In this document: piece by piece, positions 15,053 to 64,000 of the stretch | Layout of the letters: the number at the start of each line of letters is the position of its first letter | How positions within the stretch are numbered: position 1 is the first letter of the stretch | Origin: Streptomyces sp. NBC_00162 | Lineage (GTDB): Bacteria > Actinomycetota > Actinomycetes > Streptomycetales > Streptomycetaceae | DNA: 64,000 bases | NCBI RefSeq assembly: GCF_024611995.1 | Contig: NZ_CP102509.1 | Coordinates: forward strand, 5,518,001-5,582,000 | Direction: 5' to 3' | The notes under the pieces: model-generated | The model's database searches: none | What the model saw: only the letters and a program-made list of their open reading frames with translations | What the model was told of the DNA's origin: nothing | Program-made: the position numbers and the translations under genes

Positions 15053-15069
15053 GGCGCGGCGCCGTTGCT

Positions 15070-15189
15070 GGGGCTCCGCCCCAGACCCCGCGCCTCAAAC
15101 GCCGGCGGGGCTGGGTTGTGCCTGCCGGACGGCATCAGCCAAATCCAGCCCCGCCGGCGTTTGAGGCGCGGGGTTCGGGGCGGAGCCCC
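15070..15189. repeat. Long palindromic interspersed repeat, intergenic copy
   Basis: Two 45-nt arms (15070-15114 and 15145-15189) match as inverted copies at 43 positions and are separated by 30 nt with its own small hairpin. The arm carries GCGCCTCAAACGCCGGCGGG and is capped by a GGGGCTCCGCCCC mini-hairpin. It lies between the convergent GH20 and desD genes and could act as a bidirectional terminator. The same arm recurs at 25175-25218 and 63733-63842. Confidence 0.9.
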
Positions 15190-24746: not shown

Positions 24747-26806
24747 CCGGTCGCCTCCTCTTCCGTTTCCGGGGTGACGACGGCCAGGACCTGGTCCATG
24801 GCGACGGTCGCGCCGGGGGTGACGTCGAGTTCGGTGACGGTCCCGGCGTGCGGGGCGGAGATGACGTGCTCCATCTTCATCGCCTCGACGACCAGGAGGC
24901 TCTGGCCGGCGGCCACCTTGTCCCCGACGGCCACCTTGACGACGGTGACGGTGCCGGGCATGGGGGCGGCGAGGGTGTCGGCGCCTCCCCTCGAGGCCCC
25001 GCTCAGGGATGCGGCCACCGGGTCGTGGCTCTGGACGTGCCAGCTGTCCGCGTCGCGCCCGAGCCAGACCCCGTCCGGGGAGGCGGCGTAGGCGAAGCGG
25101 TGGGTGACGCCGTCGAGTTCGACGGTGACGGTGTCGGTGGTGCGGGCCACGATCCGGCCGCGGGCCGGTGCGCCGGGGCTCTGCCCCAGACCCCGCGCCT
25201 CAATCGCCGGCGAGGCTGAATCTGCGTCGGCGGGGTCGGAAACGAGCAGCTCTGATGCGGCTCCGTGAGGCCGGGTGCGGACCTGCACCGGATCCTGGCC
25301 CGGGAGGCGGAAGTGCTGCACGGTCCAGGCCGGGGTGCCGCCCAGGCGCCAGCCGTTGGGGACGTCGAAGGGGTCGACCCACCCCTGCGCCTGCGCAGGG
25401 GTGTCGGTTAGCAGGGCCGCCGCCGCGTACACCTCCGGCGGGACCCCCTCCGGGAGGAGGGACGGGAGGTCGCGCTCGACCAGGCCCGTGTCCAGGTCGC
25501 CTGAGACCACGTCCGGGTGGGCCAGCAGGCGACGCAGGAAACCGGCGTTGGTCTGGACGCCCAGGATCACCGTGTCCGCGAGGGCGCTCCGCAGCACCCG
25601 CAGGGCCGCCGCGCGGTCGGGACCGTACGCGATGACCTTCGACAGCATCGGGTCGTACGTGGAGCCCACCGGGACGCCCGCCGTCAGGCCGGAGTCCGTG
25701 CGGACCGGACCGCCCGACGGCTCGGACAGGGCGAGGACCGTGCCACCGGAGGGCAGGAACCCCCGCGCCGGGTCCTCCGCGCAGACGCGGGCCTCGATCG
25801 CGTGGCCCGTCAGCCGGACCTCCGACTGGTCGAAGCCCAGCCGTTCGCCCGCCGCCACCCGGAGCTGGAGCTCCACCAGGTCCAGGCCGGTGATCAGCTC
25901 CGTCACCGGGTGCTCGACCTGGAGGCGGGTGTTCATCTCCATGAAGTAGTACGAGGAGGGGTCCCTGCCGGGGACGATGAACTCCACCGTGCCCGCGCCG
26001 ACGTACCCGCACGAGCGGGCCGCCTCCACCGCCGCCGCGCCCATCGCGGCGCGGGTCTTCTCGTCCAGCAGGACCGACGGCGCCTCCTCGATCACCTTCT
26101 GGTGGCGCCGCTGGAGCGAGCACTCGCGCTCGCCCAGGTGGACCACGTTCCCGTGGGAGTCGGCGAGGACCTGGATCTCGATGTGCCGGGGCCGGTCGAT
26201 CCACCGCTCGACCAGGAGCGTGTCGTCGCCGAAGGAGGATCGGGCCTCGCGGCGGGCCGCCGCGATCTCCTCGGCCAGTACGGCCGGGTCGCGCACCAGC
26301 CGCATGCCCTTGCCGCCGCCGCCCGCCGAGGGCTTGAGCAGGACCGGCATGCCGATCTCCTCGGCGGCCGCGACCAGTTCGGCGTCCGACAGTCCGCTTC
26401 CGGAGGAGCCGGGGACCACGGGCACGCCCGCCGCCTTCACCGTCTCCTTGGCCCGGATCTTGTCGCCCATCAGGGAGATGGCCGAGGCCGGGGGGCCGAT
26501 GAAGGCGAGACCGGCTTCCGCGCACGCCGCCGCGAAGGCCGCGTTCTCCGCGAGGAAGCCGTAGCCCGGGTGGACCGCCTCGGCGCCCGTCCGCCGCGCG
26601 GCATCCAGCAGCCGCTCCACCGACAGGTAGCTCTCGGCGGCCGCCGCCGGGCCGATCCGGACGGCCGTGTCGGCCTCCCGTACGTGGCGGGCGTCGGCGT
26701 CCGCGTCGCTGAAGACGGCCACCGACCGCACGCCGAGCTGCCGCAGCGTACGGATGACCCGGACCGCGATCTCGCCCCGGTTGGCGACCAGAACAGTGCT
26801 GAACAT
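24743..26806 (-). CDS. Acyl-CoA carboxylase alpha subunit (biotin carboxylase + BCCP), repeat-bearing
   Basis: A 687-residue biotin-dependent subunit. The biotin carboxylase domain is at about 1-445: ANRGEIAVRV start, ATP-grasp loop GGGGKGMR at about 163-170, and MNTRLQVEHPVTE at about 288-300. A linker/BT region follows, then a C-terminal biotinyl domain with EAMKMEH. With the beta subunit it should carboxylate methylcrotonyl-CoA. The ATG at 26806 begins MFSTVLVANRG; a GTG at 26821 is an alternative. Odd: the linker contains a half copy of the local palindromic repeat (25175-25218), translated as SPAIEARGLGQSPG at about residues 529-542, in frame. It probably adds a flexible peptide between domains. 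Confidence 0.95.
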   Translation of the reverse strand: MFSTVLVANRGEIAVRVIRTLRQLGVRSVAVFSDADADARHVREADTAVRIGPAAAAESYLSVERLLDAARRTGAEAVHPGYGFLAENAAFAAACAEAGLAFIGPPASAISLMGDKIRAKETVKAAGVPVVPGSSGSGLSDAELVAAAEEIGMPVLLKPSAGGGGKGMRLVRDPAVLAEEIAAARREARSSFGDDTLLVERWIDRPRHIEIQVLADSHGNVVHLGERECSLQRRHQKVIEEAPSVLLDEKTRAAMGAAAVEAARSCGYVGAGTVEFIVPGRDPSSYYFMEMNTRLQVEHPVTELITGLDLVELQLRVAAGERLGFDQSEVRLTGHAIEARVCAEDPARGFLPSGGTVLALSEPSGGPVRTDSGLTAGVPVGSTYDPMLSKVIAYGPDRAAALRVLRSALADTVILGVQTNAGFLRRLLAHPDVVSGDLDTGLVERDLPSLLPEGVPPEVYAAAALLTDTPAQAQGWVDPFDVPNGWRLGGTPAWTVQHFRLPGQDPVQVRTRPHGAASELLVSDPADADSASPAIEARGLGQSPGAPARGRIVARTTDTVTVELDGVTHRFAYAASPDGVWLGRDADSWHVQSHDPVAASLSGASRGGADTLAAPMPGTVTVVKVAVGDKVAAGQSLLVVEAMKMEHVISAPHAGTVTELDVTPGATVAMDQVLAVVTPETEEEATG
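25175..25218. repeat. Half copy of the palindromic repeat inside the carboxylase gene
   Basis: GGGGCTCTGCCCCAGACCCC and the following GCGCCTCAATCGCCGGCG match one arm of the 15070-15189 element with only a few substitutions. The opposite arm is absent. It lies in the interdomain linker and leaves the frame open. Confidence 0.85.
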
Positions 26807-53936: not shown

Positions 53937-53985
53937 AAAGCGCCCCGCCGTCGATCCCCCCACGGGTCGACGGTCGGGGCGCTTT
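53937..53985 (+). terminator. Terminator of gltA
   Basis: AAAGCGCCCC plus CCGTCGA pair with TCGACGG plus CGGGGCGCTTT across a C-rich loop, with one bulged base on each side. It is followed by CCTTTCC and begins 26 bp after the citrate synthase stop. Confidence 0.88.
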
Positions 53986-54111
53986 CCTTTCCCCGGTACG
54001 GATTCCCCCCACGGGACCCGAGCCGGGGCGTCGGTGTCTGCCGGGACCCGTTCGGGTCGGGAGGGCCGCTCAAAGCCTCCCGCGGGCACGTGTCCCGGCC
54101 GGCCGGTGCCC

Positions 54112-62647: not shown

Positions 62648-63607
62648 GTGACCGGCGACAGGTTGGCGTTCGACCTGATCACGATGGGGCGGATCGGGGT
62701 GGATCTCTACCCGTTGACGACCGGCGTACCACTGGAGGAAGCGGACACCTTCGGCAAGTTCCTGGGCGGCTCCCCGGCGAACGTGGCCGTCGCGGCCGCC
62801 CGGCTGGGCCGACGCGTGGCGATGATCACCCGCACCGGCGCGGACCCGTTCGGCGCGTACCTGCGCTCCGAGCTGCGGGGGTTCGGGGTGGACGACCGGT
62901 GGGTGGCCGAGGTCGCCGACTACCCCACGCCGATCACCTTCTGCGAGATCTTCCCGCCCGACCGCTTCCCGCTGTACTTCTACCGGCTGCCCAAGGCCCC
63001 CGATCTGGAGATCGGGGCGGAGGACCTGGACCTGGAGGCGGTACGGGAGGCCCGCGTCTTCTGGATGACGGGCACCGGCCTGAGCGAGGAGCCGAGCCGA
63101 GCGGCCACACTGGCCGCGCTGGAGGCCCGCGCGAAGTCCGGGACCACCGTCTTCGACCTGGACTGGCGGCCGACGCTGTGGCGCGAGAAGCCCGGCCCGT
63201 ACTACGAGCGGGCGCTGGCCCTGGCGACGGTGGCCGTCGGCAACACCGAGGAGTGCGCGATCGCCACCGGCGAATCGGAGCCGTACGCGGCGGCGCGGGC
63301 ACTGCTCGCCACCGGGGTGGAACTGGCGGTGGTCAAACGGGGCCCGGAGGGCGTGCTGGCGGTCCACCGCGACGGAACGGTGGCGGAGGTCCCGCCGGTT
63401 CCCGTCCAGGTGGTCAACGGCCTCGGGGCCGGGGACGCGTTCGGCGGTGCGCTGTGCCACGGGCTGCTCGCGGGGTGGGAGCCGGAGCGGGTGATGCGGT
63501 ACGCGAACGCGGCCGGGGCGATCGTGGCTTCGCGGCTGGCGTGCTCGACGGCCATGCCGTTCTCTCACGAGGTGGAGGAGGTGCTAGGGCGTGCCGGTGG
63601 TGTCTGA
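62648..63607 (+). CDS. iolC: 5-dehydro-2-deoxygluconokinase
   Basis: A 319-residue PfkB-family sugar kinase. The substrate glycine motif GGSPANVAVAAARLG is at about 38-52 and the ATP/anion-hole signature NGLGAGDAFGGAL at about 257-269 (catalytic Asp). It phosphorylates 5-dehydro-2-deoxy-D-gluconate in inositol degradation. GTG 62648 is chosen because GGGAGG lies seven bases before it; GTG 62615 is the alternative, 11 codons upstream. Its 3' end overlaps iolB by 17 bp. Confidence 0.93.
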   Translation: MTGDRLAFDLITMGRIGVDLYPLTTGVPLEEADTFGKFLGGSPANVAVAAARLGRRVAMITRTGADPFGAYLRSELRGFGVDDRWVAEVADYPTPITFCEIFPPDRFPLYFYRLPKAPDLEIGAEDLDLEAVREARVFWMTGTGLSEEPSRAATLAALEARAKSGTTVFDLDWRPTLWREKPGPYYERALALATVAVGNTEECAIATGESEPYAAARALLATGVELAVVKRGPEGVLAVHRDGTVAEVPPVPVQVVNGLGAGDAFGGALCHGLLAGWEPERVMRYANAAGAIVASRLACSTAMPFSHEVEEVLGRAGGV

Positions 63608-64000
63608 GTGGGGGATGGCCTGGACGCGGCTGCGGGTGCTGGCGCTGGAGCCGGGGGAGGTGTACGCGCACGATTGCGGGGACGCCGAGTGGATCGTGCT
63701 CCCGCTCTCGGGCGCCTGCCAGGTCCGCTGCTGGGGCTCCGCCCCAGACCCCGCGCCTCAAACGCCGGCGGGCTGGCTTGCCCGGAGGGCAATTCCAGCC
63801 CCGCCGGCGTTTGAGGCGCGGGGGTCCGGGGGCGGAGCCCCCGGCAGCGGACCGCAAGTCTTCGAACTGCGGGGGCGGACGGGGGTGTTCGACTCCGTCA
63901 CCGACTTCGCTTACGTGCCGCGCGACAGCCATGTCGAGGTCACCTCCGCAGACGGCGGCCGCTTCGCGCTCGTCGGCGCGCGCTGCGACACGGTGCTGCC
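63591..64000 (+). CDS. iolB: 5-deoxy-glucuronate isomerase IolB, partial, with in-frame repeat insertion
   Basis: The 5' part of iolB (at least 136 codons), running off the window. Residues about 7-45 (MAWTRLRVLALEPGE to DEWIVLPLSG-like) and about 88-136 (VFELRGRTGVFDSVTDFAYVPRD and on) match the IolB double-cupin start. Between them a full copy of the palindromic repeat (63725-63850, 126 nt = 42 codons) encodes a Pro/Ala/Gly-rich peptide containing PPAFEARGS, with no stop. The N-terminus also seems about 25-30 residues short: a TAG lies just before GTG 63591. Whether the protein is active is uncertain. Confidence 0.85.
   Translation, partial: MPVVSEWGMAWTRLRVLALEPGEVYAHDCGDAEWIVLPLSGACQVRCWGSAPDPAPQTPAGWLARRAIPAPPAFEARGSGGGAPGSGPQVFELRGRTGVFDSVTDFAYVPRDSHVEVTSADGGRFALVGARCDTVL
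63725..63850. repeat. Long palindromic repeat, copy inside iolB
   Basis: Arms at 63733-63776 and 63795-63842 are inverted copies with CCGCTGC/GCAGCGG flanks extending the symmetry to 63725-63850. Sequence matches the 15070-15189 element (GCGCCTCAAACGCCGGCGGG core). Length is a multiple of three and the frame remains open. Confidence 0.92.

Follow-up and report, generated by a model that had tools for sequence, protein, structure and literature searches.

A palindromic repeat of Streptomyces is probably carried in frame as a disordered linker of the isomerase IolB

In the window (the whole 64,000-nucleotide stretch of the Streptomyces sp. NBC_00162 genome that was analysed), the gene for 5-deoxy-glucuronate isomerase, iolB, contains an in-frame palindromic element. 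The history that we regard as probable is that a Streptomyces hairpin repeat entered iolB ancestrally, is read through as a disordered linker, and has been drifting and rewritten in place. The element occupies positions 63722..63856 (+), with outer ends (GGTCCGCTGC and GCAGCGGACCGCA) that are alike in other copies. The left inner arm (63749..63772, +, reading PAPQTPAG) and the right inner arm (63800..63823, +, reading PAFEARG) are complementary at 24 of 24 positions, forming 24 bp of 100% complementarity, and extra arms flank them outward. The spacer between them (63773..63799, +) holds a small hairpin, TTGCCC-GGA-GGGCAA, visible in the sequence and in the RNA fold. The RNA of positions 63715-63862 has a predicted folding energy of -138.3 kcal/mol, as compared with a mean of -80.7 kcal/mol for shuffled sequences (z -12.8; 0 of 200 shuffles as stable), and the window contains 5 matches to the core, CGCCGGCGTTTGAGGCGCGGGG, with at most 3 mismatches (mean in shuffles 0.00, n = 100). 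The element thus has the size and fold of palindromes resembling Rickettsia palindromic elements (RPEs; ∼100-150 nt, one long stem), and it has terminal inverted repeats of the MITE type; a MITE-style check for target-site duplication at iolB gave no clean empty site, and the host motif there resembles the element end. The sequence-only reading had described an insert of 126 nt and 42 codons. A multiple-of-three insert was indeed found, with those figures being approximate: because both ends match other copies, the true palindrome spans 63722 to ∼63856, and the net gain in iolB is 39 residues relative to the commonest IolB spacing (62 vs 23 residues between two motifs) or 36 residues relative to L047, which has the shortest spacing in the clade described below. 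The insertion edges in iolB are ambiguous, because the host carries G(G/A)TCCGCTGC at this position in L045 and L046, two relatives with short loops. The possibility that the outermost 15-bp arm is a mirrored host flank was dropped, since similar ends are present in other copies.

The 5′ part of iolB lies at 63591..64000 (+) and the gene extends beyond the window, encoding 319 aa altogether (L030:591-1550). Its start overlaps the preceding gene by 17 bases (window 63591-63607), and the protein presumably lacks an N-terminal stretch that is present in other IolBs. The product scored 253.7 bits against the IolB equivalog model TIGR04378 (cut-off 205), the frame is open for 319 aa up to the stop, and the part of the gene located 3′ of the insert has dN/dS values of 0.15-0.34 in 19 comparisons, in a selection test that covered iolB alone among the genes bearing arms. 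The repeat that had been noticed inside iolB is a near-perfect palindrome in an intact frame, and the gene is not a pseudogene. An assembly error, a pseudogene or chance GC-rich low complexity is an exceedingly improbable source of the element: GC-rich palindromes are error-prone, but genomes from many species that were deposited independently carry inserts, and the 24-bp perfect arms, the zero chance expectation for the core matches and the dN/dS range argue against an artefact. In an AlphaFold2 model (33 rows, mean pLDDT 67.9), residues 49-88 contain neither helix nor strand, and the insert sits between strands 43-48 and 89-93 in the first cupin half. The pLDDT is ∼90 in the first 50 residues, <50 at residues 56-82 (as it is elsewhere in the protein too) and ∼70-85 at residues 81-100. 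IolB-like 2QJV aligns at the insert site without any insert. The conserved open frame suggests that the insert is translated as part of the protein, in which it would be tolerated as a disordered linker rich in Pro, Gly and Ala.

The repeat in iolB belongs to a family of ∼75 genomic loci (48 + 27), collected from matches to the core, to the outer arm and from blastn. The core word has 63 genome matches with at most 3 mismatches (reversed-pattern control, 0), the outer-arm word has 70 (control, 1), and blastn yielded 104 (40 of 170 candidate stretches scored). One locus, L235, was rejected as a family copy, its match to a Gly-rich ssb-like tail being fortuitous, and some single 3-mismatch matches among the 75 loci may be due to chance too. 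The core had been said to be shared with an intergenic copy at 15070-15189; that copy is real, extends over 15062..15189 (no strand assigned; L005) between two convergent genes, and shares 84% identity with the query across its positions 1-117. The consensus of 63 arms is ATCCAGCCCCGCCGGCGTTTGAGGCGCGGGGTCTGGGGCGGAGCCCC followed by AGCA-CGG--CCGC. By eye, the spacers are small hairpins whose arms vary in matched fashion (TTGCCC-GGA-GGGCAA, TTGCCGC..GCGGCAA and others), and a number of copies have a second hairpin (CTCCCCCAGACTCCGTCCGGGGGGACCCCCA type) nested in one arm. The family is a mosaic of nested GC-rich hairpins that is mostly intergenic. In a search of 61 genomes, 22 were matched, all within the 37 Streptomyces genomes and 0 of the 24 outside the genus (reversed control, 1); the commonest variant in other Streptomyces among the matches listed is CTCCGGCGTTTGAGGAGCGGGG, with a change at each end of the small stem that the arm itself contains. 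The 66 loci that were placed relative to genes, with gene calls that were start-trimmed and derived from codon-position GC without a trained gene finder, comprise 32 in convergent, 30 in same-direction and 4 in divergent gaps; set aside were 7 loci that lie within genes and 2 that a called gene overlaps, namely L221 (read into by a C-terminus) and L235. Among window gaps of at least 60 bases, 4 of 30 are convergent and 9 divergent, so that convergent placement differs between the two sets (32/66 vs 4/30, Fisher p 0.0007). This count bears solely on the role that intergenic copies may have as a two-way 3′-end hairpin, either a terminator or an mRNA end.

Internal in-frame arms are present in seven genes from the 75 loci: iolB, cobB, an accA-type gene, a double ABC ATPase gene, hrpB, atuA and hemA. 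The idea of a dispersed, RPE-like family is thereby upheld, most loci being intergenic; the six genes other than iolB had been overlooked by the sequence-only reading, including the accA-type gene in the window itself. Five of the seven came from the first 48 loci and two (atuA and hemA) from the other 27. Both arms are present in iolB, the ABC ATPase gene and hrpB, the left arm in cobB and hemA, and the right arm in the accA-type gene and atuA; the nested second hairpin is included in the atuA and hemA copies. The single arm of the accA-type biotin carboxylase/biotin carrier protein gene is located at 25175..25220 (−) and is in frame (SPAIEARGLGQSPG), and HemA, a glutamyl-tRNA reductase, is encoded at L227 (C1:4912513-4915533), with its left arm and the nested second hairpin in frame. 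Curated cut-offs are passed by iolB, cobB, hrpB and hemA, and Pfam AtuA by atuA; the ABC protein passes cbiO and fails the ECF models, and the accA piece, which is cut at the locus edge, passes no cut-off and owes its name to matches with biotin carboxylase and carrier. Linker length in hrpB and accA is variable in any case.

All five internal right arms are read in the (A)FEARG phase, and the five internal left arms read PAPQTP (four) or PRASNA (one). The earlier suggestion that both arms keep an open frame does not hold for every phase, as one phase of the right arm contains TGA and another is Arg-rich, reading RRRLRRG. The (A)FEARG preference is suggestive only, because with two open phases 5/5 is expected by chance at ∼0.03. 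In three further genes the 3′ end extends into a copy, L136 and L144 ending in RLKRRRG plus stop and L221 in the PAPRTP phase, and in these the repeat supplies a C-terminal tail and the stop. The Arg-rich phase is therefore used, so far at C-termini only. Searches with insert peptides, which favour the bait phases because the insert peptides themselves served as bait, gave in one case 6 matches (IolB, 4; CobB, 2), in another 12 (ABC ATPase, 8, one of them own; SpoIIE-type phosphatase, 2; IolB, 1; CobB, 1), and in a third, at E ≤0.01, 15 (HrpB, 6, one of them own; AtuA, 8; a branched-chain ABC transporter of S. nojiriensis, 1). All named matches are from Streptomyces. The database searches thus add two protein types in other Streptomyces, the SpoIIE-type phosphatase and the branched-chain ABC transporter, and the atuA copy of the present genome was found via a peptide search of other strains.

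The history of the iolB site was followed in 80 fetched IolB orthologue loci. The spacing count consists of 78 rows, without L053, L069 and L087 (6 of the 78 failed the motif match, and L053 was read separately), and the tree of 36 rows. A two-motif spacing of 23 residues was found in 38 of the 78 rows. In the tree, all insert bearers fall within one Streptomyces clade of 20 rows (SH-aLRT 100), and the element core is absent from all 16 tree rows outside it; among the orthologues examined, the core at the iolB site is thus confined to this clade. Ten clade rows have a recognisable element core, seven have longer inserts without the core, and three have only 3-9 extra residues, which may reflect an empty site and not the remains of an insert. 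The 20 rows show 18 different spacings, with the frame open in 20/20. The window copy pairs most strongly as RNA (z -10.5), as compared with z values of -5.3 to +1.6 in the 19 orthologues (60 shuffles each), of which 12 are near or at the shuffled level (z ≥ -1.3) and two reach z ∼ -5 or lower. On the evidence of these orthologous sequences, the iolB insertion is old, shared within a clade, and has decayed in the majority of its members. It is not a fresh hop, and no active spreading of the kind that had been envisaged was seen. Outside the clade, L073 (in the tree) has 9 extra residues and L077 (outside the tree) has 18, both of another kind. In L053, the iolB of S. antimicrobicus, the equivalent loop holds an insert rich in Ser/Val/Pro repeats and unlike the palindrome, so the turn seems to be generally tolerant. 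The iolB inserts of L038 and L110 hold another terminal module, of the CCCCGCCCCTTCCCGAAACC type, which is also found beside copies L113, L139 and L143.

In the mechanism that we favour, a copy would have entered iolB in the ancestor of the S. virginiae/avidinii/lavendulae-like clade, at the turn of the first cupin half. Selection on IolB would purge frameshifts and stops, so that length changes in multiples of three survive, and within this frame limit the insert would drift, losing pairing and arms. Occasionally it may be rewritten in place, through spacer inversion between the arms or conversion from another copy. At the protein level, the IolB P0002 differs from that of the present genome at 14 of 17 residues in positions 62-78, with unchanged length and ∼97% identity elsewhere, and at the place of the spacer P0002 reads LELPSGQASPP, 11 consecutive residues for which the present genome's own element codes when read as its reverse complement.

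A possible but doubtful alternative is repeated insertion at a single iolB hotspot, where the host G(G/A)TCCGCTGC resembles the element end and the inserts would be separate arrivals. The host motif is present in L045 and L046, which have short loops only, insert subtypes differ by species (GSAPDPAPQTP vs ALPGPAPHTP), other modules are found in L038 and L110, and the window copy is the most strongly paired. Its left arm is also identical to those of two paralogues at 54/54 aligned bases (one gap), as compared with 50/54 in the best orthologue, and that orthologue is surpassed by 15 of 47 paralogues on the left arm and 3 of 47 on the right, in a comparison that takes the best of 47 paralogues and thereby favours them. 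On the IolB tree, the label 'PAFEAR core' changes five times, of which starred branches force at least three, and, given these five changes, a single origin followed by decay is not established in preference to several insertions. However, the bearers in the tree form one strongly supported clade, several species still retain identifiable traces of the same right arm, and rewriting by inversion or conversion would also account for the fresh copy.

The hairpin could also be kept in iolB as a regulatory device, an attenuator or RNase III site that lowers expression of iolB and downstream genes, with the peptide as a by-product. The very stable fold of the window copy and the enrichment of intergenic copies at terminator positions are consistent with this, but we consider it unlikely, because in most clade members the insert pairs no better, or little better, than shuffled sequence. 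Still less probable is that the segment is skipped or removed, by translational bypassing or RNA excision, to give a protein without it. Palindromes in mitochondrial genes of Magnusiomyces yeasts are said, in the accessible part of the source, to be bypassed (PMC6649704), but the open frame in every clade row, over 18 spacings, and the use of the same phase in unrelated genes argue against removal of the segment.

No RAYT-type Y1 transposase flanked by repeats was found in a PF01797 search of the genome, which thus gave no mover for the family; the sole match (L150, C1:7.596 Mb) is a Y1 transposase covering positions 2-88 of 121, and 0 of the 75 loci lie there. This match adjoins an opposite-strand ORF that by eye reads like TnpB. 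Beside 63 right-type arms, the CGTC tag is not conserved (4 upstream and 8 downstream 30-base flanks) and the GTAG tag is absent from the consensus (9 upstream and 5 downstream flanks). An Rfam gathering scan of the window gave tRNA and Scr2736 only, the latter, a Streptomyces small RNA, being matched at window 53966-54030 (−).

The known systems that are closest to this family come from other bacteria. As described in the available portions of the sources, RPEs are palindromes of 100-150 nt that lie in frame within genes unrelated to one another, with orthologues that carry inserts at the same sites, exposed placement and repeat identity that fades over time (PMC3767692, PMC2229807, PMC10969869, PMC6649704); CGTC-tagged ends are reported for RPEs of R. 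conorii (PMC3733652). The Streptomyces family is similar in size, in-frame copies in unrelated genes, same-site orthologue inserts, exposed placement and loss of identity, whereas it differs in occurring in unrelated bacteria and in being a GC-rich, mostly intergenic mosaic of nested hairpins in which no CGTC tag was seen. GTAG/CGTC-tagged REPs of Opitutus, Xanthomonas and others lie mostly between convergent or unidirectional genes and in part inside known genes, in an account whose available text contains 'Streptomyces' and 'Actinobacteria' 0 times each (PMC3733652). The Streptomyces repeats are likewise short, structured, similarly placed and sometimes intragenic, but a conserved GTAG or CGTC tag and a RAYT-like arrangement were not found; on these results, the family works like these REPs but is not assigned to them. 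In the parts of the literature at hand, the enterobacterial ERIC/RU-1, RU-2 and RU-3 and the Correia element of Neisseria (107 bp) are MITE-like repeats of ∼100-170 bp with open frames that are fused in frame to genes, a likeness to the present family; TA termini and target duplications are listed for several of those families, and none was seen in the present one (PMC2759123, PMC2229807). Neither by repeat sequence nor by topic was a Streptomyces family of this kind found in the open-licence literature that was searched. By analogy, the family would best be read as the counterpart, in Actinobacteria, of RPEs and of REPs that lie inside genes, and, as far as the available source text goes, RPE, ERIC/RU, Correia and REP elements are precedents for in-frame palindromic inserts, which the Streptomyces case would join.

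More tentatively, the repeat family may act as a standing supply of frame-safe linkers and C-terminal tails built of nested modules, and the iolB site may stay a rewriting spot, at which spacer inversion or conversion from intergenic copies would swap the peptide between close strains and leave the surrounding enzyme untouched. In the reports available, Rickettsia is the best-known source of coding palindromes, and related intragenic repeats are described from other groups, with Actinobacteria not among them. A free-living Streptomyces with a 9-Mb genome, seven such genes and about 20 stages of iolB, from fresh to decayed, makes the arrival, tolerance and change of these inserts testable, and lineage-specific insertions in Streptomyces enzymes may be relics of repeats.
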